The position numbers and the translations under genes were made by a program. The notes beneath the pieces were generated by a model, which saw only the letters and a list, made by a program, of their open reading frames with translations, searched no databases and was not told where the DNA came from. From assembly GCF_000744285.1 (NCBI RefSeq), contig NZ_JQLQ01000002.1:1302001-1366000 (forward strand): a DNA stretch of 64,000 nt, read 5' to 3'. The stretch comes from Carnobacterium pleistocenium FTR1 (lineage in GTDB: Bacteria; Bacillota; Bacilli; Lactobacillales; Carnobacteriaceae). Shown in pieces: positions 16,723 through 56,200 of this stretch; position 1 is the first letter of the stretch; each line of letters opens with the position of its first letter.

Positions 16723-17522
16723 GTTGAGTCCCCAATCTTCTTAAATAATTTTCATTCTGTTTTCAGTATTTCTAAAAACTACTTAAATTAGTATACCATT
16801 GAAATGGATTAAATACGTTAAACTAGTATTACCATTCTATTTCGTTTCTAAGTTTCTTTGTCTTTAACTGTTATTTTTGTTCGAAAAGGATTCTTAAAGA
16901 GCGTTTTTTTATTGGGAAATAGCGTTAGACCTATTAAACTATGAATGAAAAGAGAGATATGCGTCAACTTATCTTTCTTTTAGATAAAACCGTTAAAGAC
17001 GGCAGCAACTATAGAACATAATACAGAAGAAATCGTCCTACTCGCTAAAGCTTAGATGGTTACCTTTTTTTGTCTGACGAGATTTTTTAAAACAAGAACT
17101 GTAAAAGCTTACGCGACAATCAAATTATCATAACTACTCATAGGATTTTCTTTCTTAGGGAATCCCATACAAAAACAGCGGCATTACTCTGTTTTAAATA
17201 TGTTGAGCAAAGACGATATTTAATTCCATATAGTCAATACATGGAATTACTTAGAACTATGTATCTATATTTTTATGATACATTTCAAACGTATTGACAA
17301 TCAATCACTTTACATTGATTGTACTAAGAAATAGTGGGAAAATAAATATGAAATTCACAGATCATTTTTATATTATGGCCTTTGTGGCTAACTTTATTTT
17401 TATAATGCAACTAAAAAATAAGCCATAAAACCAGGATGCTTTACTCTAATAAAGTGGCAAACCAATTTTTATAGCTTTTTTATAGGATTATATAATTTTT
17501 GGTATGGAAATATAAATTAATT
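16723..17522. other. Gene-poor gap with small dyads and a possible 26-codon ORF
   Basis: There is no confident gene. A dyad AATTCCAT...ATGGAATT lies near 17221-17250. A perfect dyad ACAATCAAT-8-ATTGATTGT (17297-17322) overlaps a TTGACA box (17294-17299). A 26-codon plus-strand frame at 17348-17428 (MKFTDHFYIM start) with a hydrophobic core follows, but its ribosome-binding site is weak and no good -10 box is spaced correctly. It may be remnant sequence. Confidence 0.4.
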
Positions 17523-38962: not shown

Positions 38963-38970
38963 TTAAAAAC

Positions 38971-41283: not shown

Positions 41284-41307
41284 CTTAACTACAAAGGAGT
41301 CCTTAAA

Positions 41308-42162: not shown

Positions 42163-43405
42163 ATGACTATGAAAAACAAAGCATCATTCTGGCTTGGATT
42201 ACTAGCAACAGCAACTGTTGGGTTCTCCCCTCTTGTTGTATCTGCTGAGGAAAATCCTGAACCGACTTTACTAGAAATAAATACAAAACCCATCTTGAAC
42301 ACTCCTGCTGAATTTCCTTCAAAATTTATTTATGATAGCGGAGTTGATATTGTCTATCCCGAAAATGGCGTCAAAGGCATTTATGTTACGGCCTATTCGG
42401 CTGGTGGAACAGATAAACTGAAAGAATTAACGAACTTTGTTCATTCTAGTGGCTTAAATGCTATGGTCATTGACGTCAAAGATGATGTTGGACATATGAC
42501 AATGGATCTTAAATCTGAAAATGAGATCGTTCAAAAGAGTACTCAAAATTACGTTTCTGATCCAGCGTCTATGATGAAACAACTTGAAGAAAATGAAATC
42601 TACCCTATCGCTCGTGTTGTGGTATTTAAAGACACCTTATTAGCCGAAGCTAAACCTGACCTTTCATTTAAAAAAGCAGACGGCACTGTTTGGAAAAACG
42701 GTAATGGAGATGCTTTTGTTAATCCCTTTTCTAAAGAGGTGTGGGATTACAATATCGAAAGAGGTGTGGGATTACAATATCGAAGTGGCTAAACAAGCTG
42801 CTAAAATGGGCTTTAAAGAAATCCAATTTGATTATGTTCGCTTCCCAGAAGGTTTTGAAAACGAGAGCGAATCATTGAACTACTCTCTTGGCGATTACGA
42901 AACTAGCGACTTAGATGACGTTCAACAGCGAGTTACAGCGGTTGGTGATTTCGTGAAATATGCTCGTGAAGAGTTAGATCCATATGGTGTTGAAATTTCG
43001 GTAGATATCTTTGGTTATGCCGCTACTGTTCCAGAAGCACCTGGTATCGGACAAAACTTTGCTAAAATCTCTGAAAATGTGGATGTCATTTCTTCAATGA
43101 TTTACCCAAGCCATTGGAACGCTTACTTTGGGATCAACAAACCTGATTTAGAACCTTATAATTTGGTCTCTGAATATATGAAAGTAGAAAATAACTTACT
43201 TTCGGGATTAGACACACCGCCTAAATCTAGACCTTGGTTGCAAGATTTTACCGCTTCTTACTTAGGAGCAGGAAATTACCAAAACTATGGTGCAGCGCAA
43301 GTCGAAGATCAAATACGTGCTTTGCATGACGCGGGAGTAAATGAATTCTTGCTTTGGGATGCTTCTAACAGTTATACGCCAGGCGTCAATTATAATATGG
43401 AATAA
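42163..43405 (+). pseudogene. DUF4015 putative glycoside hydrolase, frameshifted by a 25-bp tandem duplication
   Basis: Two overlapping frames, 42163-42792 and 42704-43405, together encode one secreted protein. The N part has a signal peptide (start MKNKASFWLGLL at 42169, cleavage after VVSA) and the KGIYVTAYSAGG and MVIDVKDDVGH motifs. The C part has IQFDYVRFPEGFE and PWLQDFTASYLGAG, as in DUF4015 (GH13-like barrel). At 42734-42783 a 25-bp unit is present twice in tandem, which shifts the frame; with one copy removed the gene reads through as about 405 aa (ending cleanly at 43405). Loss of one unit would restore it. Confidence 0.9.
42734..42783. repeat. Perfect 25-bp tandem duplication inside the DUF4015 gene
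   Basis: Units 42734-42758 and 42759-42783 are identical (AAGAGGTGTGGGATT followed by ACAATATCGA). Because 25 is not a multiple of 3, the second unit causes the frameshift and a stop a few codons later. Confidence 0.95.
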
Positions 43406-43439
43406 ACAGGCATATAATAAAAAGCTTCATATCTTTTTC

Positions 43440-43499
43440 AAACCAGTAACCAAAGTACCCCCTTCTATTATGGAGGGGGTACTTTGGTTACTGGTTTTT
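43440..43499. terminator. Very strong terminator after the envelope gene cluster
   Basis: Arms AAACCAGTAACCAAAGTACC+CCCT and AGGGGG+TACTTTGGTTACTGGTTT pair over about 24 bp with a short loop and flanking A/T runs. Confidence 0.92.
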
Positions 43500-43708
43500 A
43501 TGTTAACTATTGAATTATCAGTGGGCTCTTTTATTTTTTAGTCTGCTGCAAAGTTTAAAATGACGGTTGTTTAATTTTGTTTTTTGATTCAGAATATATT
43601 ATATGATCGAATCTTTTAGAAGGTTTTTATCAAAAAATAATTATACATATTTTTTCAAGCAGCATGACAATAAAAATAGACTTTTTCTTGTACTAAAGGA
43701 GTGACATA

Positions 43709-43912
43709 ATGAAAATAAACAAAAAACAATTTTGGATCCTAGCAATTTCATATGCAGCTGTAACATTTATTTTGAATAATGTACTTCATACGACTATAGG
43801 TAGCTTTTTAATGCAATTAAGTTCCTTAGCTTTAGCCCTTGGACTAATGTTATTTACATATAAAATACTTGAAATCTTGATCAAACAATTTATCTACAAT
43901 CGTAAAAAATAA
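43709..43912 (+). CDS. Small two-helix membrane protein
   Basis: 67 aa: basic N terminus (MKINKKQFW), two hydrophobic segments, and a basic tail (YNRKK). AAAGGAG precedes the ATG. No family recognised. It lies just before a region with a probable bacteriocin-immunity pseudogene; small membrane proteins of this kind are common there, but a role is not evident. Confidence 0.6.
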   Translation: MKINKKQFWILAISYAAVTFILNNVLHTTIGSFLMQLSSLALALGLMLFTYKILEILIKQFIYNRKK

Positions 43913-44034
43913 TACGCTACTTTTTCACTTTTAAGTTTACAGACCATTTTCTTTATACTTGTCATTATCTAATCATAACTAACTTTTTTTTAACGGATAA
44001 CTATAAAAGTAGGATAAGGAGAACTGAACTACTA

Positions 44035-44232
44035 GTGATTACTTTATTAGAAAATATCAATGAAGTAGCAACAATCTTGTTACTTTTAAGCACACTAATT
44101 TATTATATAAGTTTACGAAGAAAGCGAAAGAACCAATCACTAACAGCATTCGAAAAAGCAATGTATATAATAACATCTATTTCAATATTTTTATACGTTT
44201 ATAGTTTCTTTGCTCTCTATTTTAGAACTTAA
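44035..44232 (+). CDS. Small two-helix membrane protein
   Basis: 65 aa from a GTG start with AAGGAGA 12 nt upstream (rather long spacing). Two hydrophobic helices flank a basic loop (SLRRKRKNQS). No family recognised; similar in plan, not in sequence, to the gene 120 bp upstream. Confidence 0.5.
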   Translation: MITLLENINEVATILLLLSTLIYYISLRRKRKNQSLTAFEKAMYIITSISIFLYVYSFFALYFRT

Positions 44233-44284
44233 TAAAAAACAGAAATCTATAATGACACCAAAAAGTTACATAGAATAGTTCATT

Positions 44285-44362
44285 ATGAAAAAAATAATTG
44301 AGTTTGTAACAGTTTTTATTTTGGTAAGTGGATTAGGTTTGTTGTTTGATTCTAGAATATAG
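44285..44362 (+). CDS. Possible 25-residue hydrophobic peptide
   Basis: ATG to TAG: MKKIIEFVTVF then a hydrophobic stretch ending LFDSRI. It looks like a signal-peptide or toxin-like fragment; no clear ribosome-binding site. It may be the broken start of a lost gene. Confidence 0.25.
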   Translation: MKKIIEFVTVFILVSGLGLLFDSRI

Positions 44363-44488
44363 AAGTTGCAATTGATTATCCAAATAGTGGGTAGACTGGA
44401 ATAAAGCACAGAGTAAAATGGGTACAATTATAGTTAGTGGTTGGCTCCAAAATGATTAATGATCTTAATACGAGAAAGGAGCTAATTT

Positions 44489-44770
44489 ATGAAGAATAAT
44501 GATGAATAAAAAATTATAGATGCCATTAGCAAAGCCTATTCAGATCCAGAAATAAAAAAAGATAGTGAATTTTCTCAAGCATTATTTGACTAGGCTAAAA
44601 AGATTTCTGATGGGGATGATTAAAAACTTATTTGTGTAAAATTAAGTAGAAAAATCAACTCTTACTTAATGGCTAACAAGTTTAATTTAAATGCGATTGT
44701 TGGCAAAGAAGTTGCGAATTACAGAGGAGCTTCTTCTATTAGTATGTGGGGTTCCAATCTTTTCTACTAA
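44489..44770 (+). pseudogene. Bacteriocin immunity-like gene with three in-frame stops
   Basis: AAAGGAG at 44475-44481 precedes an ATG and a 94-codon frame interrupted by TAA (codon 7), TAG (codon 35) and TAA (codon 45), with no frameshift. The readable parts (IIDAISKAYSDPEIKKDSEF, SQALFD, then KLICVKLSRKINSYLMANKF) resemble the helical EntA-type immunity proteins that protect producers of class IIa bacteriocins. The assignment is from pattern only; the pseudogene state is plain. Confidence 0.6.
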
Positions 44771-44818
44771 ACTTTTGACTATCATAATTTTTTAAAAAAA
44801 ACAATACAATTGTATGAA

Positions 44819-44950
44819 TTAAAATCCCAAACAGCAATTTAATAACGTCTCGCTAATTTCAACTTCATTGATTCCAACATAGCGCTTCGTGATTTTCTCG
44901 CTACTATGACCAAAAATTTCCATCAGAGTGGCCACGTCTTTGGTTAATTC
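44819..44950 (-). pseudogene. C-terminal fragment of a second short tyrosine recombinase
   Basis: The minus strand encodes KDVATLMEIFGHSSEKITKR then YVGINEVEISETLL, nearly the same as the end of the recombinase at 46119-46670 (DNA identity is obvious by eye over 44842-44935). It carries the conserved FGHSS and the catalytic Tyr (TKRYVG) but lacks everything upstream. It ends with its own stop at 44819. Confidence 0.85.
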
Positions 44951-44956
44951 ATATAA

Positions 44957-45283
44957 TTACTAAATAATAGTGGATTTAGGTACAATATTAAAGCTAATAT
45001 TAAAAATAATCCTGTTGTTGCCCAAGGTGTAACTAGTATAGTAATAACCGCAATTAGTATGTCTAAACTACTACTTATGTAGATGGAAATTTCCAATTTT
45101 TTGTTGTTCTCTAGATAATTCTTTAAAATCTTTTAATTTAAAAGGTGCAATAGTTCAGTACCTCACTATTGCGGAAGAAAAATTATCTTTTGAAACTTTA
45201 ATCATAGCGATTATTTTCATCAAAATTAGAAAGACCATAACCGAAATTAATATGTAACTCATCATTAAAAAAACTTCTTTCAT
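44957..45283 (-). pseudogene. Decayed small membrane protein upstream of the recombinase remnant
   Basis: From ATG at 45283 a 42-codon hydrophobic frame (MKEVFLMMSYILIS start) ends at TGA 45155. The same frame continues open with KLKDFKELSREQQKIGNF, and a further hydrophobic stretch (TPWATTGLFLILALILYL) follows in another frame. It looks like a membrane protein broken by a stop and a frameshift. Its position before the recombinase mirrors the membrane gene before the better-preserved recombinase. Confidence 0.45.
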
Positions 45284-45334
45284 TTTTTATTTCTAATCTG
45301 TCTTAAAAAGGCATATTAAACAAATTATGTAATT

Positions 45335-45988
45335 TTAAGGAATTTTAATAATATAAATTGGTTTTCCTTTGTCATCGACAATGTTAAGCGTTTCAGCCTT
45401 TTCAGCAAAAGAATTATCCCATCTTACTTTTAATTCCTCACTGTTTGCACGTAATAAATTGAGGTCAGTTCGTAACATTAAATTAACTTCTTTTCCTCCT
45501 TCAGTTCGGTCTAATGAATAGAGAGAGAGCGTTCTATATGCCGGGAGATAATTAACTTTCAACTCTAAAGTATACCCTTCATCATTATTTTCTAAAGAAG
45601 CAGACTTAATTTGATTATAGTTAGAAATTGTTTCTACTCGACCGGGTTGTCCTGTTGAAATCCAAACAGCAACTAGACTAATCAAAATTATAAGAATAGA
45701 CAAAATAATTATTGTCTTTTTGTTTTTCTTTCTTACGTTTGTATCTTTGGTGATTTTTTTTACTAAGAATTTATCATTCTTTAACAATTCATCTAAAGAA
45801 ATGTTCAATTCATCAGATAACAAAACAATGGTTTGAATATCAGGATACTGACTTCCAATTTCCCAGTCAGAAACTGTAGAATGAGCAACATTAGTTTTCT
45901 TAGCCAACTCTTCTTGGGTCATACCAAATTCTTTCCGCTTCTGTTTTATTCTTTCCCATATTTCTATTAGAGTTTCCTCCTCATTCAA
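45335..45988 (-). CDS. XRE-family regulator with a transmembrane segment
   Basis: 217 aa. The N-terminal HTH_3 domain (IKQKRKEFGMTQEELAKKTN, VAHSTVSDWEIG) is followed by a basic linker, one transmembrane helix at about residues 91-110, and an external C-terminal domain (VETISNYNQIKSAS; NLMLRTDLNLLRA). Membrane-tethered XRE proteins of this type often sense cell-surface conditions. It lies between the two recombinase relics; whether it belongs to the mobile region is unclear. No target site was identified. Confidence 0.85.
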   Translation of the reverse strand: MNEEETLIEIWERIKQKRKEFGMTQEELAKKTNVAHSTVSDWEIGSQYPDIQTIVLLSDELNISLDELLKNDKFLVKKITKDTNVRKKNKKTIIILSILIILISLVAVWISTGQPGRVETISNYNQIKSASLENNDEGYTLELKVNYLPAYRTLSLYSLDRTEGGKEVNLMLRTDLNLLRANSEELKVRWDNSFAEKAETLNIVDDKGKPIYIIKIP

Positions 45989-46118
45989 TTAACCATAAGT
46001 TTAATTAAAAGTAGCAACAGTAATGGTAAATTGCAAATTTTATATATAACCATACTATACTAGAAATAGAGACAAAATTAAAATTTATAAGTGGTAGTTT
46101 ATTTCTCATCTCCATAAA

Positions 46119-46670
46119 TTAAAAACCTAATCTAAAATTCAATAAAGTCTCGCTGATTCCATCTTCATTGATCCCGATATAGCGTTTCGTGATTTCCTCG
46201 CTGCTGTGACCGAATATTTCCATCAGTGTGGCCACGTCTTTGGTTTTCTTGTAATAGTTGGTAACCAACTGTCTTGCGCAACGTGTGTGGCCAAATATCG
46301 TCTCTTACTAACAGCTTAGCGACCTTTTGAAACATCTGGTAGACTGTATTGACTTCTAAATGCCCACCTTTAGTACTGGGAAACAAATAGTCCTCTGGTT
46401 CTAGGTCTTTTGTATAATCTTGGATCAAGTCCTGCAAACTACTCAAATATAAAATACGTGTTTTTCCTGTTTTATTTTCGACAATACGGGGGGTTTTTGA
46501 GGAAATCAGGTCTTTTTTCTTTAATTTAATAATGTCTGACATACGTAAACCGCTATTAATCACGATCAAAATAGGAAAACGTCCCGATTCGCATTTTTAT
46601 TGCGCCTTAAACAAAATAAAAAGTCGTTTATTTCTTGCTGCGTTCTTAATGGTTGGACGTTATAACTCAT
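46119..46670 (-). pseudogene. Short tyrosine recombinase (integrase), broken by two single-base indels
   Basis: Reconstructed, the gene encodes about 183 aa, only the catalytic domain. From the ATG at 46670 it reads MSYNVQPLRTQQEINDF... NRDVFLF; a missing base in the A run at 46568-46571 shifts the frame to LIVINSGLRMSDIIKLK. An extra base near 46258 shifts it again before YYKKTKDVATLMEIFGHSS. Across the frames all catalytic residues are present: Arg (SGLRMSD), Lys (ENKTGKTRIL), HxxR (PHTLRKT), His (FGHSS) and Tyr (TKRYIG). It adjoins the array of eight 28-bp sites, for which it is the obvious candidate recombinase. Start overlaps the preceding membrane gene by 11 bp. Confidence 0.88.
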
Positions 46671-46884
46671 TATGACCCCACTTACTTTTAACAAAAAATA
46701 TAATTTTAGATATAATGTAAAAGTATATTACATAGAAGATTAAAAAGTATCCCCAACTAACTAAACTATTCCCTACTGTTAAAAAATCTAGCATAGGTAA
46801 CTGACTTTGAGTGAAAAAAGTTAAAAAAATAGCCAAAATAACTGTTATGATTGTTAATAAAATGTCTTTTGCTTTTTCCTTCAT
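46660..46884 (-). CDS. Small membrane protein overlapping the recombinase start
   Basis: 74 aa from the ATG at 46884 (MKEKAKDILLTIITV), preceded by TGGAGG; two hydrophobic segments and a basic tail (FVKSKWGHNEL). Its stop overlaps the recombinase start by 11 bp, so the two were translated together. No family recognised. Confidence 0.65.
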   Translation of the reverse strand: MKEKAKDILLTIITVILAIFLTFFTQSQLPMLDFLTVGNSLVSWGYFLIFYVIYFYIISKIIFFVKSKWGHNEL

Positions 46885-46961
46885 CTTAAGTCCTCCATAA
46901 TTTAAATTTAACACATGCTTTTGTCTATCATATCACGAAATCGTGTATTGGAGAGCACTAT

Positions 46962-46992
46962 AAAAAAAAGAACCCTATAGAGGTAGGATTCT
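46962..46992 (-). terminator. Terminator next to array site 1
   Basis: On minus, AGAATCCTA pairs with TAGGGTTCT, followed by TTTTTTTT. It directly follows site 1, which itself follows the ASCH gene: gene, site, terminator. Confidence 0.82.
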
Positions 46993-46994
46993 GG

Positions 46995-47022
46995 ATACCC
47001 GTTTTTATCCAATTTCATGTAT
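46995..47022 (+). repeat. Array site 1
   Basis: ATACCCGTTT left half, AATTTCATGTAT right half; flanked by GG and CC that extend the terminal inverted repeat (GGATAC...GTATCC). It lies 13 bp after the stop of the ASCH gene. Confidence 0.85.
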
Positions 47023-47035
47023 CCATAAAAAATAA

Positions 47036-47476
47036 TTATTTATAAACTACTTGAAATTCTTCGCAAACAACTGGAATGTTATCATGAATCTCAAGATTTC
47101 CTTCTTCATACCATTTTGTAAATAATTCAGTGTGCTCTTTTCTCCAAGATTCTAATGATTTATCGCCTTCGCCTTCTTTAAAGGCATGCTTCTCAGAAAC
47201 TTCAAGAAATGGAATAATCGAAACTTTGGTAGTTTTTGTTATACAAAAAGCCTCATCTTTGCTATCTAATATAATGTTAAAATCATTTACTTGTGGCAAT
47301 GGATCACTATCTAATGCATATAACTCATAAGCTGAAGCTGTAGCAGTTTTAATACCTTGCAATGTCAATTCTGCTAGTTCATCAGGAATGGCTCCAAAAC
47401 TCCATGCATTGTAGCTGCTATCCTTATATTCTGACTGTTGTTTTATAAAATTCTCCCACATTTGTTTTGCTTCCAT
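47036..47476 (-). CDS. ASCH-domain protein (cassette 1)
   Basis: 146 aa from the ATG at 47476 (MEAKQMWENFIKQQ), with GGGGGAG 8 nt upstream. The ASCH signature GIKTATASAYELY and the FCITKTTKVSIIPFLEVSE strand are visible, as in YqfB-like/ASCH proteins that resemble RNA-binding PUA folds. Some homologues hydrolyse modified nucleosides; the function here is unknown. Only gene of the first inter-site block. Confidence 0.88.
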   Translation of the reverse strand: MEAKQMWENFIKQQSEYKDSSYNAWSFGAIPDELAELTLQGIKTATASAYELYALDSDPLPQVNDFNIILDSKDEAFCITKTTKVSIIPFLEVSEKHAFKEGEGDKSLESWRKEHTELFTKWYEEGNLEIHDNIPVVCEEFQVVYK

Positions 47477-47547
47477 AAAAATCTCCCCCTTGGCTATCTT
47501 CAATTATGAGTTATTCTATTCAAATTTCAAGATACGATTACTACTTG

Positions 47548-47575
47548 ATACATGATTTTATGTAATTTCATGTAT
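47548..47575 (+). repeat. Array site 2
   Basis: ATACATGATT left half, TTATGT spacer, AATTTCATGTAT right half. Lies 45 bp after the stop of the 57-aa membrane gene (minus). Confidence 0.9.
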
Positions 47576-47620
47576 CTAATATCTAATATCTAAATTGATA
47601 AAAAGACTTTATTTGAGCAT

Positions 47621-47794
47621 TTATTTATTCTTATCCTTTTTTTTAGCATTCTCATAATAGAACCAACATCCAAGTAGCACAAAAAATAGCAAAATTAAAT
47701 TATCTACAGCTGGTGTAAAATCTATAGTCATTTTTAGCATAACGGCTAGTATTACTAATGTTAATCCAATAGCAAATTGTTTTTTAGTTCTCAT
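47621..47794 (-). CDS. Small membrane protein, 57 aa (cassette 2)
   Basis: ATG at 47794 with GGGAGTG upstream. The sequence MRTKKQFAIGLTLVILAVML is followed by a second helix (NLILLFFVLLGCWFYY) and a lysine-rich tail, i.e. two membrane segments. No family recognised. It shares the block between sites 2 and 3 with relBE, from which it is separated by a terminator. Confidence 0.6.
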   Translation of the reverse strand: MRTKKQFAIGLTLVILAVMLKMTIDFTPAVDNLILLFFVLLGCWFYYENAKKKDKNK

Positions 47795-47873
47795 ATCAAA
47801 TCACTCCCGTTTTTTTATTCTATTGCTTTAATTATACAGTATGTTTAAAAAATAAAAATATTCCGTACAATTA

Positions 47874-47914
47874 ATAAAAAAAATCGACTATTTTTTAAGT
47901 AGTCGATTTTTTTT
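47874..47914 (-). terminator. Terminator of relBE
   Basis: AAATCGACTA pairs with TAGTCGATTT, with A and T runs on both sides; 33 bp after the relE stop on the minus strand. Confidence 0.9.
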
Positions 47915-47946
47915 ATTATTAATCTGCTAGACTGAATTTTAATGAA

Positions 47947-48219
47947 TCATTTATAAATATCTTTCCTGTGGCCAATCTCTAACATTAAAATAATGACTGT
48001 CTCGTCATTGATATCGGCAATTAAGCGATAATCTCCAATTCTATACCGCCATTCTCCTGAACGATTGGCGGTCAGTCCTTTTCCTTGTTTCCTAGGATCT
48101 GTACAATTCACTAGATTCTTTTGAATCCATCCCATAACTAAAAGAGATTGGTGTTTATCCATCTTTTTTAAAGCTTTTTGTGCTCCTTTTTCAAACGTTA
48201 CTTGATAACGTGAATTCAT
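47947..48219 (-). CDS. relE: RelE/ParE-family toxin (cassette 2)
   Basis: 90 aa. GEWRYRIGDYRLIADIND followed by VIILMLEIGHRKDIYK is the characteristic RelE core and C terminus; MNSRYQVTFEKGAQKALKKM is the usual N-terminal part. It is probably a ribosome-dependent mRNA interferase neutralised by the preceding antitoxin. The start codon follows the antitoxin stop directly. Confidence 0.92.
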   Translation of the reverse strand: MNSRYQVTFEKGAQKALKKMDKHQSLLVMGWIQKNLVNCTDPRKQGKGLTANRSGEWRYRIGDYRLIADINDETVIILMLEIGHRKDIYK

Positions 48220-48441
48220 TTAATCCGCTAACTCCTTTAGCATATCTTCAAAAGAAATACTTTGCGGATTTTCTTTGTGCTCAGACATAGCTTGGTTATA
48301 TAAACTCAAATCAATTTCATCTTCAATTTTTTCTAAAACAGCATTTCTAAATAAAGCTGAAACAGAGATATTATTAGCTTTAGCATATTCTTTGATTAGT
48401 TGATCTTCTTGGTTATCAATTCTTAGGGATACTACAGTCAT
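48220..48441 (-). CDS. relB: RelB-type (ribbon-helix-helix) antitoxin (cassette 2)
   Basis: 73 aa from the ATG at 48441 (MTVVSLRIDNQEDQLIKEYA), GAGGAG upstream. N-terminal ribbon-helix-helix (SLRIDNQEDQLI, NNISVSALFRNAVLEKIE), C-terminal toxin-binding tail rich in Glu (SISFEDMLKELAD). A perfect 15-bp dyad overlaps its ribosome-binding site region and is the likely autoregulatory operator. Confidence 0.9.
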   Translation of the reverse strand: MTVVSLRIDNQEDQLIKEYAKANNISVSALFRNAVLEKIEDEIDLSLYNQAMSEHKENPQSISFEDMLKELAD

Positions 48442-48452
48442 TAGAATCAACT

Positions 48453-48492
48453 CCTCTTCTTTTGTATATACATTGTAATACAAAAGAAGAGG
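48453..48492 (-). promoter_or_regulatory. Operator dyad of relBE
   Basis: Perfect arms CCTCTTCTTTTGTAT (48453-48467) and ATACAAAAGAAGAGG (48478-48492), 10-nt loop, overlapping the Shine-Dalgarno sequence of relB. It could act as an operator or as an RNA hairpin hiding the ribosome-binding site. Confidence 0.75.
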
Positions 48493-48554
48493 AATTTCAA
48501 TCTATTTTCTCTATAAAATGGATTAGCTCACTCAAAAATTAACTCTAATTAGCG

Positions 48555-48586
48555 AAAAAAATCCATAACCTTGATAGGTTATGGAT
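48555..48586 (-). terminator. Terminator fused to array site 3
   Basis: On minus, ATCCATAACC pairs with GGTTATGGAT and is followed by TTTTTTCGC. The first arm uses the last bases of site 3, so the terminator starts within the site flank. Confidence 0.88.
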
Positions 48587-48612
48587 ACACTATTCTATAT
48601 AATTTCATGTAT
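48585..48612 (+). repeat. Array site 3
   Basis: ATACACTATT left half, CTATAT spacer, AATTTCATGTAT right half. Lies 58 bp after the stop of the lipoprotein gene (minus). Confidence 0.9.
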
Positions 48613-48670
48613 TTCAAATGTTTTCTTAGTGTTATCTGAATTGAGAGGATAAAATCTTATTAATGAGTAT

Positions 48671-49246
48671 TTAAGGTTCTACTATAATCGCTTCAGAAGA
48701 CATTTTTTCTAGTAAATCTCCATCGTCATTAATATCTAAAGAAGCTATTTTTCCATCTTCAAACTCAGCTCGACCAGTTGCAACAACGTTCTTCGTCTCG
48801 TCTTCATCTGTAGTATATTCTAGTGTTACTTTGAAAGAATATCTGTTAGGATTCTCTTTATCTTTAGTCACTTCAACATTTTTGACAATTATTTGGTATC
48901 CTGCACCATCTGCATACAATGAATAACTTGAAGGAATTGAAGTTTGGATAGTAAATTTTTCATACCCATATTCTGTAAAATAATCTTCATATGTATCTTT
49001 TAAAAGTGTATCCAGATCGTTTTCAGATTTCAAAACAGCTGATTCCGTTACTTCCTCACCCGATTGTACTTTATCTATAGGGCCTAATATTGCATTTACT
49101 AGTTGTTCATTTGGAGCCGTTAAAGCTTCTTTTAAAACAGTTTTAATAGATTGAACATTTGAATCCTCTTCAGATTTTGAGGAACAAGCTCCTACAGTAG
49201 TTAAAATAATGAGTAAGCAACAAATAAATAAGCTCTTTTTTTTCAT
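48671..49246 (-). CDS. Lipoprotein of unknown function (cassette 3)
   Basis: 191 aa. The signal peptide MKKKSLFICCLLIIL ends in the lipobox TVGACSS. The mature part has an N-terminal helix region (SIKTVLKEALTAPNEQLVNA) and a beta-rich C-terminal half (YSFKVTLEYTTDEDE, VVATGRAEFEDGKIASLDIN), resembling small extracytoplasmic lipoproteins of Lactobacillales. GGAGAG precedes the ATG. It is the single gene of its block and has a site and a terminator at its 3' end. Confidence 0.8.
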   Translation of the reverse strand: MKKKSLFICCLLIILTTVGACSSKSEEDSNVQSIKTVLKEALTAPNEQLVNAILGPIDKVQSGEEVTESAVLKSENDLDTLLKDTYEDYFTEYGYEKFTIQTSIPSSYSLYADGAGYQIIVKNVEVTKDKENPNRYSFKVTLEYTTDEDETKNVVATGRAEFEDGKIASLDINDDGDLLEKMSSEAIIVEP

Positions 49247-49351
49247 TTTTTCACTCTCCTTTAATATTAAATTACTTATAAAATAGTATACATTATTTAA
49301 TGTTGAAAAATGTGAACATAAAAAGATAAACCTGTTTTAATAATATTCTAT

Positions 49352-49379
49352 ATACATGATTCTATGTAATTTCATGTAT
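49352..49379 (+). repeat. Array site 4
   Basis: ATACATGATT left half, CTATGT spacer, AATTTCATGTAT right half: the copy closest to the consensus. Followed at 49383-49410 by a palindrome AACAAGTACAAAT / ATTTGTACTTGTT without a T tract. Confidence 0.92.
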
Positions 49380-49474
49380 CTAAACAAGTACAAATATATT
49401 TGTACTTGTTATTCTTAGGTAACACTTTTTATTATCTACTCGTTATTAACTATAACAAGTAGTAGGTGATCATC

Positions 49475-49624
49475 ATGCCATCAGAAAACAGCCACGTACT
49501 AATCAATAGCACTATTCAGGTCCTTGTTGAAGAAATAAAAGAGTGTCTAGAAACGAAATTTCTAATTCAGGATACTCAACAAGATATTATTGAAAATGCA
49601 ATTATTGCCCTAAGATCTCAATAA
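49475..49624 (+). CDS. Small protein of unknown function, 49 aa (cassette 4)
   Basis: ATG at 49475, weak GGTGATC upstream. Encodes MPSENSHVLINSTIQVLVEE then IKECLETKFLIQDTQQDI; predicted largely helical and soluble. Not recognised. Confidence 0.45.
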   Translation: MPSENSHVLINSTIQVLVEEIKECLETKFLIQDTQQDIIENAIIALRSQ

Positions 49625-49732
49625 ATTAACTTTATATAAAGAAGAGAGGAACACTTAAATTGAGAACTCCTTTTGCCCTTTAGATTATTTGATAATAGAG
49701 AAAAATTCACTTTTTGATTTCTGGCGTTTTAA

Positions 49733-49761
49733 TTAACAAATCTTTTGGTTGGTGGTAAAAT
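49733..49761 (+). promoter_or_regulatory. Promoter of the DinB gene
   Basis: TTAACA (49733-49738), 17-nt spacer, TAAAAT (49756-49761), 20 bp before the DinB start. It shows that this block carries its own promoter. Confidence 0.65.
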
Positions 49762-49781
49762 CACTTCAAGGAGTGATAGAG

Positions 49782-50285
49782 ATGACAACTATACAAGTAG
49801 AACTATTAGATCGTGTTCAAGAACGTTTTGAAGAAACTTTGGACAAAATGACGGTAGAAGAGGCCAATAAAATGCCACATCCTTTACTTAAATCAGTAAC
49901 TTGGCTCTTTTGGCATACTGCTCGTGAAATTGATATGCAGATTTCTGATCTAAAAGGCGAAGAAGCAATGTATACAAGTAATGGGTGGAATAAACGTTTT
50001 GATTTGCCACTCCCAGATGATACGCTCGAATACAAACATACATCAGAGGAAGCTGAAAAAGTCACCGTTTCTGACAAAAATCTCTTAAGTGATTATTTAG
50101 ATGTCAGTATCAAATTAGCAAAGGATTATCTAGATAATTTAAATGAAGATACTTTAGATAAAATTGTTGATGAAAATTGGTCGCCACCAGTAACTCATCA
50201 AGCTCGACTTATTTCTATTATTGATGATGCCGTTATGCATTCAGGACAAGCCATTTATACACGTCGTTTGGTGATTAATGAATAA
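49782..50285 (+). CDS. DinB-family protein (cassette 4)
   Basis: 167 aa from the ATG at 49782 (AAGGAG at 49768-49773). DinB four-helix fold: VTWLFWHTAREIDMQISDL with the first metal His, and MHSGQAIYTRRLV near the end with another; the family binds a divalent metal and often acts as a thiol-dependent transferase. The in-frame codons upstream to 49749 are not needed. Opposite strand to most genes of the array. Confidence 0.88.
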   Translation: MTTIQVELLDRVQERFEETLDKMTVEEANKMPHPLLKSVTWLFWHTAREIDMQISDLKGEEAMYTSNGWNKRFDLPLPDDTLEYKHTSEEAEKVTVSDKNLLSDYLDVSIKLAKDYLDNLNEDTLDKIVDENWSPPVTHQARLISIIDDAVMHSGQAIYTRRLVINE

Positions 50286-50334
50286 TAGAAAGTGCGATTA
50301 ATTAACTTTCTCGCTTAATTACAGCTTATTCGTT

Positions 50335-50535
50335 GTGTATTTAGTTGCGGTAGATCAGAAGGCCTATTCGTTGCATGGCTCTTTAGCTCAATGTAATAAA
50401 TTGAAAAATAAAAAAATGAGACTTCGTGTTATTTTTAGAGAAGTACAAGGTAAATTTGAAGTGATCCAAGTTGTTGTTATTAGAAAAAGAGATAAAGAAA
50501 CCGTCTATAAAATCGCTGAAAATCGTACAAATTAA
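50335..50535 (+). pseudogene. Probable truncated RelE-like toxin gene (cassette 4)
   Basis: The C-terminal half reads RLRVIFREVQGKFEVIQVVV then IRKRDKETVYKIAENR, the pattern of RelE-family toxin C termini (R-V-F-R ... I-G-K-R-D ... VY..A..R). The N-terminal part is missing or degenerate (QKAYSLHGSLAQCNKLK) and no ribosome-binding site or antitoxin gene is visible. I consider it a relic. Confidence 0.6.
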
Positions 50536-50540
50536 CTAAA

Positions 50541-50586
50541 CAAAAGCTCTAACACTATAATGAAAAGTGTTAGAGCTCTTGTTTTA
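50541..50586. terminator. Bidirectional terminator next to array site 5
   Basis: AGCTCTAACACT pairs with AGTGTTAGAGCT, loop of 9 nt, with CTTGTTTT on plus and TTTTGTTT on minus. Confidence 0.88.
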
Positions 50587-50588
50587 CA

Positions 50589-50616
50589 ATACATGACTTT
50601 ATCAAATTTCATGTAT
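50589..50616 (+). repeat. Array site 5
   Basis: ATACATGACT left half, TTATCA spacer, AATTTCATGTAT right half. The TGA stop codon of the minus-strand gene ending at 50609 lies inside the invariant right half (ACATGAAATT on minus). Confidence 0.9.
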
Positions 50617-51073
50617 TGTTTATTTTTATTGTTAAAAATTTTAATTCTTCATAAAATAAATCATTTGCAGATAATTCATTGTAGTTGATAGAATAACTAT
50701 GTTTTAAAGGGGCATTTTCAAAACCATTTAAACAAAATAATATTTCAACATAATTGGCATTACTATTATCAAAATGATTTTTTATATATCCCAAAAGCTC
50801 CTCTAGAGCTTTTTTATTTCTTTTACTTATTTTTTTGTCATCTTTCTCCGGTAAATTTAAATCTATGGAAGCTACTTGATACTTTTCAGAAGAAAAATAT
50901 TTGCTAAAGTTTAAAACTTTTTGTTCATCTGTATCATAGTTGTTTTCAAAGAAAAAAGATTCCATAGAAATTAATGAAGGATAAAATGTAGTTTGAAAAA
51001 CTTTTAAACCTTTATCTCCAATAGGTCCATCTGGTAATAACGCATCGCTGGATAAATATATGTATGAAGACAT
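50609..51073 (-). CDS. Unknown soluble protein, 154 aa (cassette 5)
   Basis: No recognised family. The sequence is mixed alpha/beta (SLISMESFFFENNYDTDEQK; NYVEILFCLNGFENAPLKH), no signal peptide, Asn/Lys-rich and of lower GC than the core genes. GGGAGG precedes the ATG. Its stop codon is formed by bases of site 5, so the coding sequence reaches into the repeat. Confidence 0.7.
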   Translation of the reverse strand: MSSYIYLSSDALLPDGPIGDKGLKVFQTTFYPSLISMESFFFENNYDTDEQKVLNFSKYFSSEKYQVASIDLNLPEKDDKKISKRNKKALEELLGYIKNHFDNSNANYVEILFCLNGFENAPLKHSYSINYNELSANDLFYEELKFLTIKINNT

Positions 51074-51120
51074 CTAAATCCTCCCTTCTTCATAAACAAA
51101 TAAGCCTGGCATTATACTCA

Positions 51121-51148
51121 ATACAAGGTTATATGTAATTTCATGTAT
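51121..51148 (+). repeat. Array site 6
   Basis: ATACAAGGTT left half, ATATGT spacer, AATTTCATGTAT right half. Lies 13 bp after the stop of the 64-aa membrane gene (minus). Confidence 0.88.
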
Positions 51149-51161
51149 CTTTTATACGTAT

Positions 51162-51356
51162 TCACTTTTTATCCTTACTTAATTTATTAAACAATCTCGA
51201 ATAAAGGTACCAATTAAAACAAATTCCAAAAAATAATAAAACACCAGGGATCCATAATAAGCTACCGTCACGTTTGGCATATGCAGCATATAAAAATCCA
51301 AGTACAATTAACAACACAATCGAAACCAAATGAACGAGTATTTTCATTGTTTTCAT
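51162..51356 (-). CDS. Small membrane protein, 64 aa (cassette 6)
   Basis: Two hydrophobic helices (HLVSIVLLIVLGFLYAAYA; SLLWIPGVLLFFGICFNWYL) with a KRDG loop and a basic tail. Follows the 36-aa ORF by 22 bp with AGGGGAA upstream. Not recognised; resembles other short membrane genes of mobile regions. Confidence 0.6.
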   Translation of the reverse strand: MKTMKILVHLVSIVLLIVLGFLYAAYAKRDGSLLWIPGVLLFFGICFNWYLYSRLFNKLSKDKK

Positions 51357-51378
51357 ATCAATTTTCCCCTGTCCTTAT

Positions 51379-51489
51379 TTAAAATAATTTTAAAAGGTAA
51401 TTAATCAAGAAGGCAAAAGTAGTTCCATAAATGAGCCATTTTCTATTAATCCAATTTTTTTTAATTCTTTCTAACAGTTTAGTTAACAT
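51379..51489 (-). CDS. Small membrane peptide, 36 aa (cassette 6)
   Basis: ATG at 51489 with AGGAG 8 nt upstream. Basic N terminus (MLTKLLERIKKNW) then one hydrophobic segment (LIYGTTFAFLINYLLKLF). First gene of a two-gene unit with the 64-aa membrane protein. Confidence 0.55.
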   Translation of the reverse strand: MLTKLLERIKKNWINRKWLIYGTTFAFLINYLLKLF

Positions 51490-51584
51490 TGAATTGTCTC
51501 CTAACGAGTTGTTATCAAATAGTATACCATTTCTCATTATATTCTATATCAACATATCATTTTAATTTACATAAAATGAAAATA

Positions 51585-51608
51585 CAAAAAAATCTATTTT
51601 AAAGATTC
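51585..51608 (-). terminator. Weak terminator next to array site 7
   Basis: On minus, AGAATCTTTAAAATAGATTT forms a 5-6 bp stem followed by TTTTT, directly after site 7. Confidence 0.5.
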
Positions 51609-51611
51609 TGT

Positions 51612-51639
51612 ATACACTATTATAAGCAATTTCATGTAT
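51612..51639 (+). repeat. Array site 7
   Basis: ATACACTATT left half, ATAAGC spacer, AATTTCATGTAT right half. It precedes the DinJ/YafQ block. Confidence 0.88.
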
Positions 51640-51668
51640 TTACATAAAATTAAACGCACTACAGTGTA

Positions 51669-51697
51669 TTTACATCTGCATTACAATAGCTCATAAT
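51669..51697 (+). promoter_or_regulatory. Promoter of the DinJ/YafQ pair
   Basis: TTTACA (51669-51674), 17-nt spacer, CATAAT (51692-51697), 26 bp before the antitoxin start. Lies inside the block, right of site 7. Confidence 0.55.
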
Positions 51698-51722
51698 TAA
51701 AGTTAATAATGCGGCGATTTAA

Positions 51723-52022
51723 GTGGAAAAAAAACAAAAAAAAGCGGTCGTACAAGTTCGTATTGACGAAACCTTTAAACGTCAGGCTTTAGCCGTTTTA
51801 AATAACCTAAGTATGGACACGAGCAACGCTATTAAAGTCTTTTTCAGACAAGTAATTGCAGAAAATGGTCTACCATTTCAACCAAAACAAGCAAAATTCA
51901 ATACCGAAACTCTTGCAGCAATTAAGGAATCGGACGAAATGGTCAAAAATGGAACCGGAAAAAGCTACACTTCTGTTGACGATCTTTTTAAAGATGCTTT
52001 AGGAGATTTGTTGGTATGTTAG
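51723..52022 (+). CDS. RelB/DinJ-family antitoxin (cassette 7)
   Basis: 99 aa from GTG 51723 (MEKKQKKAVVQVRIDETFKR). The ribbon-helix-helix (VVQVRIDETFKRQALAVLNN, LSMDTSNAIKVFFRQVI) matches RelB/DinJ antitoxins; the Glu-rich tail binds the toxin. The ribosome-binding site is weak. Its end overlaps the toxin start by 7 bp. Confidence 0.9.
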   Translation: MEKKQKKAVVQVRIDETFKRQALAVLNNLSMDTSNAIKVFFRQVIAENGLPFQPKQAKFNTETLAAIKESDEMVKNGTGKSYTSVDDLFKDALGDLLVC

Positions 52023-52306
52023 AAATGAAGCAGAAAGCTAAATTCAAAAAAGACCTGAAACGACTAAAGAAACGAAATGCTCATCTTAAAAAACTCAAAA
52101 CGGTTATGCAAATGATCGTTGAAGAAGTACCCTTACCGGAAGAAGAATACCGTGCTCATATTTTAGAGCCGACAAAAGATTATCTCGATTGTTGGGATTG
52201 TCATATTTCTGGACGAAATAGCGATTGGCGATTAATCTATAAATTTTACCCTTCTCAAAAGCTTGTCTCTTTTATCCGAACGGGGACGCATTCGGATGTT
52301 TTTTAG
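52016..52306 (+). CDS. YafQ-family mRNA interferase toxin (cassette 7)
   Basis: 96 aa. FKKDLKRLKKRNAHLKKL at the N terminus, YRAHILEPTKDYLDCWDCHI and NSDWRLIYKFY followed by LVSFIRTGTHSDVF give the YafQ pattern with the C-terminal catalytic His and Phe. Coupled to the antitoxin gene by overlap. A second toxin-antitoxin module in the same array. Confidence 0.92.
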   Translation: MLEMKQKAKFKKDLKRLKKRNAHLKKLKTVMQMIVEEVPLPEEEYRAHILEPTKDYLDCWDCHISGRNSDWRLIYKFYPSQKLVSFIRTGTHSDVF

Positions 52307-52322
52307 TTTTTATCTGCGCAAT

Positions 52323-52368
52323 AAAAAGGGAAACAGCCGCTTGATTTTAGCAGCTGTTTCCCTTTTTG
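52323..52368 (+). terminator. Terminator of the DinJ/YafQ pair
   Basis: AAAAAGGGAAACAGC pairs with GCTGTTTCCCTTTTT, 16 bp after the toxin stop. Confidence 0.92.
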
Positions 52369-52397
52369 TATAAGCCTTTAATTTAATTAGTTTATGG

Positions 52398-52425
52398 ATA
52401 CACGATTCTATCTAATTTCATGTAT
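52398..52425 (+). repeat. Array site 8 (right-most)
   Basis: ATACACGATT left half, CTATCT spacer, AATTTCATGTAT right half. It closes the array; no further copy is seen to the right. Confidence 0.9.
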
Positions 52426-52463
52426 TAAAAATAACAACAAAATAAATTTTACAATATTGCGCC

Positions 52464-52890
52464 GATTGTAAAATTAAGCTAGACAAACTAAAGAAGACAG
52501 GTAGTGATCATGAATGGCCTACACACATCTTACCAATGATTAGCTTGTGATGATAGAATCTTATTACCACCAAAAGATTTCAGTTGCCCAAATAGCCACT
52601 TTTTTAAACCGAGCGCGAACACCCATTTACACCGTCATTAATTTTTTTAAAGAAGGCCATACGACAATTGAATATTACCAACAATACAAGGAGAATAAAA
52701 GGCATTGTGGCGTCAAAGAATCGTTCTTCCAAAGAAACAACAGTCCTACATCAAAGAGAAAGTCACTCAGGGTTGGACTCCTGACGTTACTATTGGTCGG
52801 GCAGAAGAGTCTATTCAGTGCTCTTTTCCGCCAATTCAAAGAAAAAATTTTTGATGAAACTACACTCGCCAATAGCCCTTTCGAGAATTA
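52464..52890 (+). mobile_element. IS30-family element remnant
   Basis: A degenerate transposase begins at ATG 52514 (MAYTHLTND, then an in-frame TAG). It continues LVMIESYYHQKISVAQIATF and YTVINFFKEGHTTIEYYQQY, the helix-turn-helix part of IS30 transposases, then is frameshifted (the second frame shows KKQQSYIKEKVTQGWTPDV). It is cut off at about 52890, where the group II intron fragment begins. A possible left end is the inverted repeat TTTTACAAT / ATTGTAAAA at 52447-52473. DDE catalytic residues are missing. Confidence 0.8.
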
Positions 52891-52891
52891 G

Positions 52892-53119
52892 ACACCTCCC
52901 AAGCTTCTTCTTCCTCTATGCCATACTTTCTTAACATGCAAAAGCTAGTCCGTCTCAATTCACCCTTATACAAGGTTTCTGTTCATCAGTGCGAGTGTTT
53001 GCGTCCGACTTCCTTCAGATTCCACTTCACAATGGACACTCTTGTCATTCACTAACAGTTCCTACTGCAAAGTCTATAGTGGACTTTCACCACCGAGTTA
53101 TCACCCATGCCGGGCGCAC
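52892..53119 (-). mobile_element. 5' fragment of a group II intron
   Basis: The minus strand starts at 53119 with GTGCGCCCGGCATGGGTG, the classical 5' end of bacterial group II introns, and continues with domain I-like sequence (GGTGGTGAAAGTCCACTATA, GAAGGAAGTCGGACGCAAAC, ACTGATGAACAGAAACC). After about 228 bp it ends at the IS30 remnant; the later domains and the reverse transcriptase gene are missing, so it cannot splice or move by itself. Confidence 0.75.
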
Positions 53120-53262
53120 TAAAAAGAGAATAGATTCAATTAAGCATCTACCCTCTTCAAAAGAAGCTATTCTTATATATTTTATGACAGATAAGTTACT
53201 ATAAAATCAGCTATTAGATCAGCATGTCTACATACATTTCCTAACAGACTAGCCTCTCTTTT

Positions 53263-56200
53263 TTATGGAACAAATACGATTTCACCTGTATCCAGCAGAC
53301 AAAGATAGGTTTCAGTGACTTTTTTATCTAAAATTGATTCCAATGCAGAGCGGTATAGATTCATTTGTCCTTTATACTTCTCTATCATATTTTGCCCAGC
53401 TTGCGGCCCATAATGACTAACTCGATCTGTTTTATAATCAAATAATACGATATGATCGTCCAATTCGATGAAGCCATCAATAATTCCGTGAATCAAAATT
53501 TTATCTTCAGCGTCACCATTCATATCGGTAAAGATTTTTTCAGCTTCCAGCAAAAGTGAAAAAGGTTCTTCACGATGGACAGCTTTTGCATCATTTAAAA
53601 TCATTTTTCCTAGTGGTGTAGTAAAAAACTGAACCAGCTGTCCTACTTTGATTTTTGAAGCAACTTCTTCTTTTAGAACCCCATCCTTGATCAGGGTTGC
53701 AATTAAATCCTGAATCGATTCTTCAGTAGGCAGCCGTTTCAAGTCAACGGCTTGCATGACTGAGTGAGTGGCCGTTCCTATCTCGGCACTGGAAGGAGCG
53801 GTCAATTCGGCCATAAATAAAGGACGTTCTAAGGTTTCTTCAACATACCGATTTCGATTTCTTGGTTGATTAACATCAATTTTTACCATTTGATCACTTT
53901 CGGGCTCTTCAAATAAGCGTTTAATCTCAGAAACAGATTGATAACTCGTTGTATGAGAAGCACCTTCATGTTCATAGGTATAATTCATCAAGGCTAACGC
54001 TTTTTGAACCGTTTGCTTTGTTGGTTCATCTGTCGTTGCTTGTTCTTTTAGTTGATCTAACTTTTCTAACCAGTTTTCGTCTAAATTCGTATTTTTTGAA
54101 ACCAGTTGTTCTTGGATGGCACTTTCATCGTAAAAGTGGATGGTAAAATGAGCCGGGTGGTTTGTGATTTCACCATTGCGAGCAGTGAAAGGAGTAAACT
54201 CATTTTTGCTTGCTGGGTGACGAATCAGGGCTAATCCAATCCATTTCATTAGACTGCCAGATGTGAACCGGATATCAGCTGGCAAAACAGTTGGTGCATG
54301 GGAACTGACAACGCCCCATTCTTTCCAAGCAGCTTCTTCATCTTTATAGGAACCCACTAAAAATAATTTTTCTTCTGCCCGAGTTAAAGCGACGTATAGC
54401 TTCCGCATTTCCTCCGATAATAATTTCGTTTTCTTTTCTACTTTTAAGGCCGTTTCTGGTAAAGACGGGTACCGGATGCGCCGCTCCAAATCTTTATAGT
54501 CCGTACCGACACCATATTTTTCATTAAAAATATAACTTTTCTTGATATCTTGCAAATTAAATTTCTTCGTTAAATCAAGGACAAATACAACCGGAAACTC
54601 CAGTCCTTTGCTAGCATGGATCGTCATGACGCGAACCGCATCTTCATCCTCCGATATGGCTGTAGGTTCTGCCAAATCTTTGTCCTTTTCTTGCATTTTT
54701 TCAATAAAGCGCACAAATTGGAATAACCCTTTAAAACTCGTTTTTTCATAACTAGCTGCCCGCTCATATAAAGCGTGCAGGTTAGCTTTGCGTTGTTTTC
54801 CCGAACTCATGCCTCCGACATAGTCTAAAAACCCTGTATCGTCATAAATCGTCCAGATAAGCGCGACTAAATGGTCGCGACGAGCAATTTCACGCCATTT
54901 ATTTAAGCGACTCATAAAACCAGCGATTTTATTGTAAGCATTTGAAATAAACCGACTAGCTTTTTCTGTACCAGGATAAGTCTGATAAAATGTTTTTAGC
55001 GCTTCGTAATAATCCCCCGTTTTTTGGCTGATCCTGATCGCAGCCAATTCATTTTCATCTAACCCAACAAGCGGTGAGCGTAAGACCGCTGCTAAAGGAA
55101 TATCTTGATAAGGATTATCAATAACCTTTAATAGCGACATCATGATCGTGATCTCCGTCGTTTGAAAATAATTCTGCGTATCATTTACTTGAAGTGGGAT
55201 CGCTAGCCGCTTAAATATTTCCATTAAAATCAAATTATTCTTTTTTGTCGGCGTCAATAAAACGATATCTTTGTAACTGATCGGTCGAGTTGTTTTGGAA
55301 CGTTTGTCATAGATTGGAAATTGGGTAGCAATCAATTCTTGGATTTTTTGTCCGACCATCAATAATTCGCCTTCTGTTTTATCCTCGATACGAATATCCC
55401 ATTTGATCGATTCGGTCTCTTCTTCCTCATCTTCACTGTCGCTGGTTCCTTTTTCATAAATCAACAATTCAGGCTGATGCTTTTGCAGTTCTGGAAAACC
55501 GGTAAATCCTTGTACTAATCGAGCGGCTTCATCATAATCCATTTGTCCGACGGCTTTATCCATTAATTGTTCAAAAATCAAATTAGTGAACTGCAAGACT
55601 TCCCCTCTAGAACGGAAATTCTCAGCTAATATAATCCGCTCACCAGATTGATGGTGTTCATATTTTTCATATTTTTCTAAAAATAATCCTGGATCCGCTA
55701 AACGAAAAGAATAAATCGATTGTTTAACGTCCCCTACCATGAACAAGTTTCCCTGATCCGCTTGGTCCTGTGCTAACCAGCGTAAAATATTTTCTTGCAG
55801 TTGGTTGATGTCTTGGTATTCATCGACCATGACTTCTTTAAATTTATTGCGGTAGTGCGTAGCTGCCTCCGTTTGGACCCATTCTTCATCTTGGATCCGG
55901 GCTAAGATCTGCAGCGTCAAATGTTCTAAATCATTAAAATCCAATACATTGCGGTCATCTTTACGTTGGCGGTAGGCATCGGTAAACAACTGCGTGACCC
56001 GTGCCATTTCTTCTACCAGCGGCGCTGCATTTAACATAAGATCAATTTGTTCTTGCGGTGAAGCAGAAAAATAATCAGTGGCTAATTCTTTAAAGCGCTT
56101 CTTATATTCATCTCTTAACTGTTTCATTTCTTCAGCTGTTTCTTTTATCGCTTCATCCGTATCTTTTTTGACCGACTTCCAACGAGCAAATTCAACTACT

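Follow-up and report, generated by a model that had tools for sequence, protein, structure and literature searches.

In the chromosome of Carnobacterium pleistocenium FTR1, a tandem array of small gene blocks separated by 28-bp sites was observed, with a tyrosine recombinase gene at its left end. The stretch of DNA analyzed, referred to as the window, comprises 64,000 nucleotides (bases 1302001-1366000) of the main contig of the 2.66-Mb genome. A preliminary description of this stretch had listed eight sites in one orientation and 0.5-1.2 kb apart, and all were recovered at these positions: the 12-mer AATTTCATGTAT is present in eight copies in the window, all on the plus strand, whereas none of 100 dinucleotide shuffles reached eight copies (mean 0.09, maximum 1). 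Each of the eight 28-mers scored 30-42 bits on a single site matrix, which was trained partly on these sites. The right 12 bases, described as invariant, are identical in the eight sites of the window; right halves such as AAAATAGTGTAT occur elsewhere too. Blocks of unrelated functions had also been proposed, and the ASCH, ParE/DUF6290, DinB_2, RelB and YafQ genes were all recovered. As judged from sequence comparisons, the array very probably belongs to a cassette platform with a dedicated tyrosine recombinase of unusually small size (183 aa) as its driving enzyme.

The site motif is ~ATACAYGATTY-TATNYA-ATTTCATGTAT, with two 11-bp arms around a 6-bp centre, a division chosen by us by analogy with dif. 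Scored with a position matrix derived from 170 distinct sites, twenty random sequences generated by a first-order Markov chain from four loci contained no match of at least 13 bits. In total, 447 sites were obtained from 102 loci, representing stretches of this genome, its relatives and named plasmids, and the two sites point in the same direction in 317 of 326 neighbouring pairs within 5 kb (9 opposite). Upstream of the sites, five A in the expected stretch were found for 66% of 331 distinct sites compared to 17% of random ones, and a fold of -5 kcal/mol or lower for 40% compared to 12% (8% on the downstream side). Read on the opposite strand, this combination of hairpin and A-run appears terminator-like. 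Recombinase-proximal sites possess a hairpin of their own sequence, near GAACCCTAT...ATAGGATTC, and site 1 of the window has the same type. An Rfam scan revealed no RNA family at the hairpins, the window matches being restricted to PyrR and a group II intron. Furthermore, adjacent sites share the same 6-bp centre in 15 of 318 pairs compared to 32.4 in shuffles (standard deviation 5.2), as if such pairs delete the intervening DNA, and no significant lack of sharing was found for arm positions 6-11 (9 vs. 13.2, P 0.14).

Cassettes and their neighbours in different genomes

Among 292 inter-site segments distinct in context, 152 full-length and 351 partial homologous pairs were identified. Considering the 137 full-length pairs at the level of at least 85%, the left neighbour differs in 84, the right one in 81 and both in 72; comparisons between genomes account for 104 of the 137 pairs and for 67 of the 72 with both neighbours changed, distributed over 38 genome pairs. 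An 808-bp cassette, for example, is identical in the C. viridans plasmid pDC01-2 and in genome G005 and has different neighbours there. Averaged over pairs, the half-site adjoining the cassette is conserved, whereas the opposite half is different, with the switch at about positions 14-18 of the site. In near-identical cassettes, homology is mostly lost within the site, near its centre. Differences at positions 15-16 are about equally frequent on the two sides, which is the pattern anticipated for staggered cuts. A test for the suspected block breakpoints at the sites, covering 83 loci with at least two sites, placed 45.7% of 1281 homology ends (ends of high-scoring segment pairs, HSPs) no more than 20 bp from a site centre, compared to 3.1% of random points. 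This share is 35% of 749 when each position is counted once.

Clustering of 368 segments yielded 216 clusters, of which 64 have more than one member, 43 occur in at least two genomes or records and 17 in at least three. Cassette orders are mosaic, e.g., 1-0-4-10-3-21 versus 1-0-4-6-3-14-26-7. The 108-bp segment of cluster 0 (sites included) offers almost no room for a gene and, in the arrays L122, L123, L132, L146 and L153 from several genomes, always precedes cassette 4. Of the 151 clusters counted (56 clusters were left out for length and 9 for lack of an open reading frame, ORF, of 60 aa), 81 have their longest ORF on the same strand as the site and 70 have it on the opposite one. The orientation toward the recombinase described earlier for most cassette genes is not a general rule.

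Regarding cargo, cadmium genes (cadD/arsR according to the record of E. faecalis) are carried by a cassette that measures approximately 1.23 kb, or 1.57 kb in a single member, and is shared by E. faecalis, E. lactis, Tetragenococcus solitarius, Desemzia and Carnobacterium. Moreover, an E. faecium plasmid carries merR-merA and a toxin-antitoxin (TA) pair between two sites. Among 115 cassette proteins, matches to models for GNAT acetyltransferases (8), HTH (8), YcxB (4), NUDIX (2) and glyoxalase (2) were observed within the 25 commonest of 82 families, and PADLOC returned scattered matches only.

Three array comparisons suggest entry at the recombinase-proximal site. Cassette 2 is the first one in L110, L182 and L185 and is located behind cassette 13 in L151; cassette 19 is first in L172 and L189 and follows 33-34 in L188; cassette 1 is first in L146 and follows three others in L132. 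The polarity is only suggested, because loss gives the same pattern and distal differences occur (cassette 20 alone or with others after it). An automatic test for A-x-C versus A-C events within arrays found none, such cases being seen only in comparisons starting at the recombinase-proximal site. In addition, six contigs of relatives (L036, L037, L038, L039, L125, L126) resemble head-to-tail copies of small site-bearing circles, perhaps as an assembly effect of small plasmids.

The recombinase and its companion site

An intact 183-aa relative of the recombinase is encoded elsewhere in the same genome (at ~76 kb) and on many Lactobacillales plasmids; a recombinase of at least 90% identity was detected in 116 of 72,556 plasmid records. 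The search for intact homologues beside the same sites, recommended in the preliminary description, was successful: in 59 of 61 distinct copies, a site is located 108-112 bp upstream of the recombinase start codon. The gene lies at one end of the array and reads away from it. Residues R43, K67/K70, H129, R132, H155 and Y164, presumed to be catalytic, do not vary among the 27 homologues aligned (chosen from 80 loci), and the catalytic domain with R, K, H-x-x-R, H and Y places the enzyme in the tyrosine recombinase superfamily. Across 59 relatives, 16 have both the close recombinase and sites, none the enzyme only, three sites only and 40 neither, where the close class comprises proteins of at least 75% identity, fragments and pseudogenes included, assigned by hand among the matches listed, so that a missed fragment is possible.

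Phage records matching the recombinase numbered 139 at E values up to 1e-20, and 138 of them are below 60% identity; the site was not found in the single record at 60% identity (L249, 2.4 kb). In Macrococcus, the start of the recombinase homologue (L207, L208, L213; ~45% identity) is preceded by a separate inverted repeat of 28 bp, which is close to ATGTAACACAA-N6-TTATGTTACAT and accompanied by a hairpin, a possible sign of a sister system whose specificity differs. Furthermore, an inverted repeat of the same arm sequence, ATACATGAT...ATCATGTAT, surrounds a TATAAT-like box before the recombinase gene in L014 (~6695-6733) and, similarly, in L162, and perhaps serves autoregulation.

The array at its chromosomal place

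The features of the array are compiled in Table 1. The tyrosine recombinase reported for its left end is indeed present, in the form of a broken gene separated from site 1 by a further ORF. An even distribution of sites, named beforehand as an argument against cassettes, was not seen in this genome: the full 28-bp motif is confined to a few clusters, namely near 77, 148, 171 and 672-685 kb, in the window array and at 2210-2224 kb.

Table 1. Sites, cassettes and accompanying features of the window (window positions)
Feature	Position	Strand	Basis or remark
Whole inserted block, 9.85 kb	43406..53258	.	absent in sister genome G001
67-aa membrane ORF	43709..43912	+	ORF list, alignments
Tyrosine recombinase pseudogene, relative of 183-aa plasmid recombinase	46115..46671	-	reading frame split between frames
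84-aa ORF between recombinase pseudogene and site 1	46660-46914		ORF list
A-run and hairpin of recombinase-proximal-site type, intrinsic-terminator-like on minus strand	46962..46994	-	sequence, other proximal sites
Site 1, recombinase-proximal (attI-like)	46995..47022	+	motif count, site matrix
C1: ASCH-domain protein	47023..47547	-	between two sites on C. inhibens plasmid pWNCR47 and in G001
Site 2	47548..47575	+	motif count, site matrix
C2: 57-aa membrane protein and ParE/DUF6290 TA pair	47576..48584	-	partial matches only elsewhere
Site 3	48585..48612	+	motif count, site matrix
C3: 191-aa putative lipoprotein (N-terminus)	48613..49351	-	partial matches only elsewhere
Site 4	49352..49379	+	motif count, site matrix
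C4: DinB_2 protein and small ORFs	49380..50588	+	ORFs, cross-genome match
Site 5	50589..50616	+	motif count, site matrix
C5: 154-aa protein, family unassigned	50617..51120	-	partial match only, to plasmid pWNCR9
Site 6	51121..51148	+	motif count, site matrix
C6: 64-aa and 52-aa ORFs	51149..51611	-	ORFs, cross-genome match
Site 7	51612..51639	+	motif count, site matrix
C7: RelB/DinJ-YafQ TA pair	51640..52397	+	ORFs, cross-genome match
Site 8, last of the array	52398..52425	+	motif count, site matrix
Ninth site, solitary	17237..17264	-	site matrix

Counterparts of several window cassettes were detected elsewhere. For C4, approximately 1200 of 1265 bp have a counterpart flanked by two sites in C. 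sp. 17-4 (L141) and G004 (L134), and C6 likewise has a counterpart flanked by two sites in L141, the match in L129 including the right-hand site only. C6 and C4 adjoin in this order in C. sp. 17-4, compared to C4-C5-C6 in the window. For C7, 764 of 814 bp are matched in a Vagococcus intermedius plasmid, starting from the left site; in G001 the match covers 803 of 814 bp, and no site was scored there.

Window positions 30000-43405 and 53259-58418 align side by side in G001 (L242), only ~80 bp apart, and the block between them is therefore absent there. In C. sp. 17-4, the same place is occupied by a different array, which has no cassette cluster in common with that of the window, and by a recombinase gene that is likewise broken and related (87% DNA identity). 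At the addA place in the further sister genomes G002, G004 and G005, the left flank gave no alignment within the 20 kb examined. The membrane ORF inside the block is identical at 64 of 67 positions to an ORF beside the intact recombinase paralogue (L014); ORFs of small contigs from relatives (L121, L036) agree with it at 37-38 of 72 columns. A Rep_3 gene (PF01051), which would point to plasmid integration, was searched for in the genome, and none was found at E 0.001.

The sole dif-like match of the genome (three mismatches allowed) is located at window positions 8666-8693 (+), ~38 kb from the array, which is therefore probably near the replication terminus. Directly after the array, a group II intron D1-D4 match (Rfam RF02001; 52887-53036, minus strand) and, beside it, an apparent IS30-type transposase remnant (52547-52891, by eye) were noticed.

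Proposed mechanism, alternatives and relation to known systems

The cassette system appears to be real and looks active. In the mechanism proposed here, the recombinase would bind the arms ATACAYGA and TCATGTAT and introduce staggered cuts at the edges of the site centre, by which a block would be excised as a circle or two replicons would be fused. The block could then insert at another site, perhaps preferably the one beside the recombinase gene. Hairpin and A-run would end transcripts of the opposite strand and thereby insulate the cassettes. The system may be native to plasmids, with chromosomal arrays as a secondary form. Its original function was probably the resolution of plasmid multimers, because many plasmids carry the recombinase gene with one site only. 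The window array itself is presumably a chromosomal copy on which the intact recombinase encoded at ~76 kb could act in trans.

Several observations weigh against this interpretation. Recombination is inferred from sequence, and no circle, excision or insertion was observed. The local recombinase is dead by a broken frame, and therefore the window array would depend on the intact paralogue. Orientation, pair and order counts are not all independent, since the locus set includes overlapping stretches and contigs resembling repeated copies of small circles. Partial homologous pairs outnumber full-length ones, and 54% of the HSP ends are located farther than 20 bp from a site centre. In single pairs, differences also fall outside the half of the site where they are expected: within the pairs at the level of at least 95%, the outermost difference of the left site is at position 19 or beyond in 9 of 32 (e.g., position 28), and the first difference of the right site is at position 11 or before in 6 of 25 (e.g., positions 2-11). 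Depletion of equal spacers becomes weaker when one cassette per cluster is taken (12-14 of 216 vs. ~21, P 0.018-0.04) and loses significance when only cassettes of at most 2.5 kb are considered (12 of 170 vs. 16.8, P 0.11). Moreover, a cassette found in two contexts has kept its spacer in 10 of 32 and 12 of 25 cases; spacers of one cassette often differ between contexts, and spacer identity therefore cannot be strictly required. Sites are present in three of 43 genomes without a close recombinase among the matches listed. Upstream of most enzyme relatives with 37-68% identity, such a site is missing, and among those with 37-45% it is absent in 9 of 9 (49 of 80 loci examined).

It is conceivable, though we consider it rather doubtful, that recombinase and single site constitute a plasmid resolution system only, and that arrays have no platform function and arise passively when plasmids occasionally recombine by way of cointegrates. 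The chemistry would be the same as in the cassette platform, with a different purpose and route. Such a role is in line with the many one-site plasmids, with a 3.3-kb contig on which a site accompanies a replication-like gene but no recombinase ORF is present, and with Xer sites of A. baumannii, which gave cointegrates and not excised modules according to the available part of PMC11705084. However, arrays of up to 12 blocks in strongly direct orientation, with hairpins enriched before the sites, look like a maintained platform, and the three comparisons described above fit additions at its recombinase-proximal end. Sites that are mere terminator-linked repeats, between which RecA-type homologous recombination or transposition occurs, could account for the hairpins before them and for the many partial homologies. 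This explanation is most improbable, given that the switch maps to the site centre, that the repeats follow a single recombinase gene and that imperfect repeats of 28 bp are short for homologous recombination.

The cassette platform shares several properties with the pdif/dif modules of Acinetobacter Rep_3 plasmids, namely the 11-6-11 layout of sites, modules moving between plasmids, a cargo of TA pairs and metal resistance, and spacer types that seem to matter (layout and cargo as given in the available part of PMC13141974). Modules are shuffled between replicons with borders at 28-bp sites here as well. Together with RepB-type initiators annotated on several site-bearing plasmids and with XerC/XerD-sized recombinases (297 and 300 aa) in this genome, these likenesses would suit host XerC/XerD moving the blocks as dif modules, the short recombinase being a bystander. 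This is nevertheless improbable: the sites occur together with the short recombinase and are located at an almost constant distance from its gene, the genome's single dif-like match scores -48 and -40 on the site matrix, and the sites stand in direct order, whereas those of dif modules alternate in C/D orientation, as far as described in PMC13141974. Dif modules proper were ruled out by site sequence and direct orientation; in the cassette platform, a dedicated short recombinase appears to replace XerC/XerD, and the hosts are Lactobacillales.

The integron-like character assigned to the array in the preliminary description holds for cassette borders, a recombinase at the end and a proximal site, as supported by breakpoints, shuffling, the empty place and the fixed spacing; the array is not an integron. 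As in integrons, a tyrosine recombinase at one end reads outward beside a first site, exchanged small cassettes of mixed function form a direct tandem array, chromosomal and plasmid forms exist, and arrays without recombinase occur, like CALINs. An integron proper was ruled out by the enzyme profile score and the missing attC core motif. The IntI profile TIGR02249 (NCBIfam, 315 positions) gave 29.5 bits for the 183-aa enzyme at a cut-off of 265, and none of the NCBIfam models listed for it reached cut-off. GTTRRRY/RYYYAAC, which we take to be the attC core motif, was found in 0 of 390 of the 28-bp site cores and in 40 of 390 of the 78-bp stretches. Unlike in integrons, the enzyme is short, the sites measure 28 bp, cassette genes occur on either strand and a terminator-like hairpin precedes many sites. 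Spacer positions 15-16, passing with either side, favour a double-strand exchange over the folded single-strand route of integrons. On the best reading, the system is a member of neither integrons nor dif modules and works like both. FimB and FimE are short tyrosine recombinases consisting of the catalytic domain only, which invert a promoter; size and single domain are alike, and the present enzyme differs in being tied to cassette arrays. Likewise similar in size and single catalytic domain are the 195-aa integrases of the L. curvatus plasmids pRC12/pRC18, encoded on lactic acid bacteria (LAB) plasmids beside TA genes, for which the available part of PMC7117683 mentions no cassette role.

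Site-specific recombination is known to shuffle cassettes in integrons and in dif modules. The latter are called unique to Acinetobacter in PMC13141974. A literature search of titles and abstract openings, with most subscription journals and preprints outside its scope, retrieved no description of such a Gram-positive system, which looks like an undescribed counterpart of integrons. With a little better than even chances, it represents a third, separate bacterial gene-cassette system native to Lactobacillales plasmids, which has a minimal recombinase, an attI-like site and insulated cassettes, is active now, and moves TA, stress and metal-resistance cassettes among Carnobacterium, Enterococcus, Vagococcus, Tetragenococcus, Desemzia and lactobacilli, spacer types influencing the pairing of sites. 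An apparently independent system of the same working type extends across food, environmental and human-derived Gram-positive bacteria, as a case of convergent cassette platforms and as an example of how plasmid resolution may have led to gene capture. It provides a simple site motif for predicting mobile blocks in Enterococcus and lactobacilli as well as a very small recombinase with site variants.

In the 3.3-kb contig mentioned above (L121, G002:C1, 3338 bp), with its replication-like gene, one site and no recombinase ORF seen, the replicon itself may travel as a module, which would be another likeness to dif modules.

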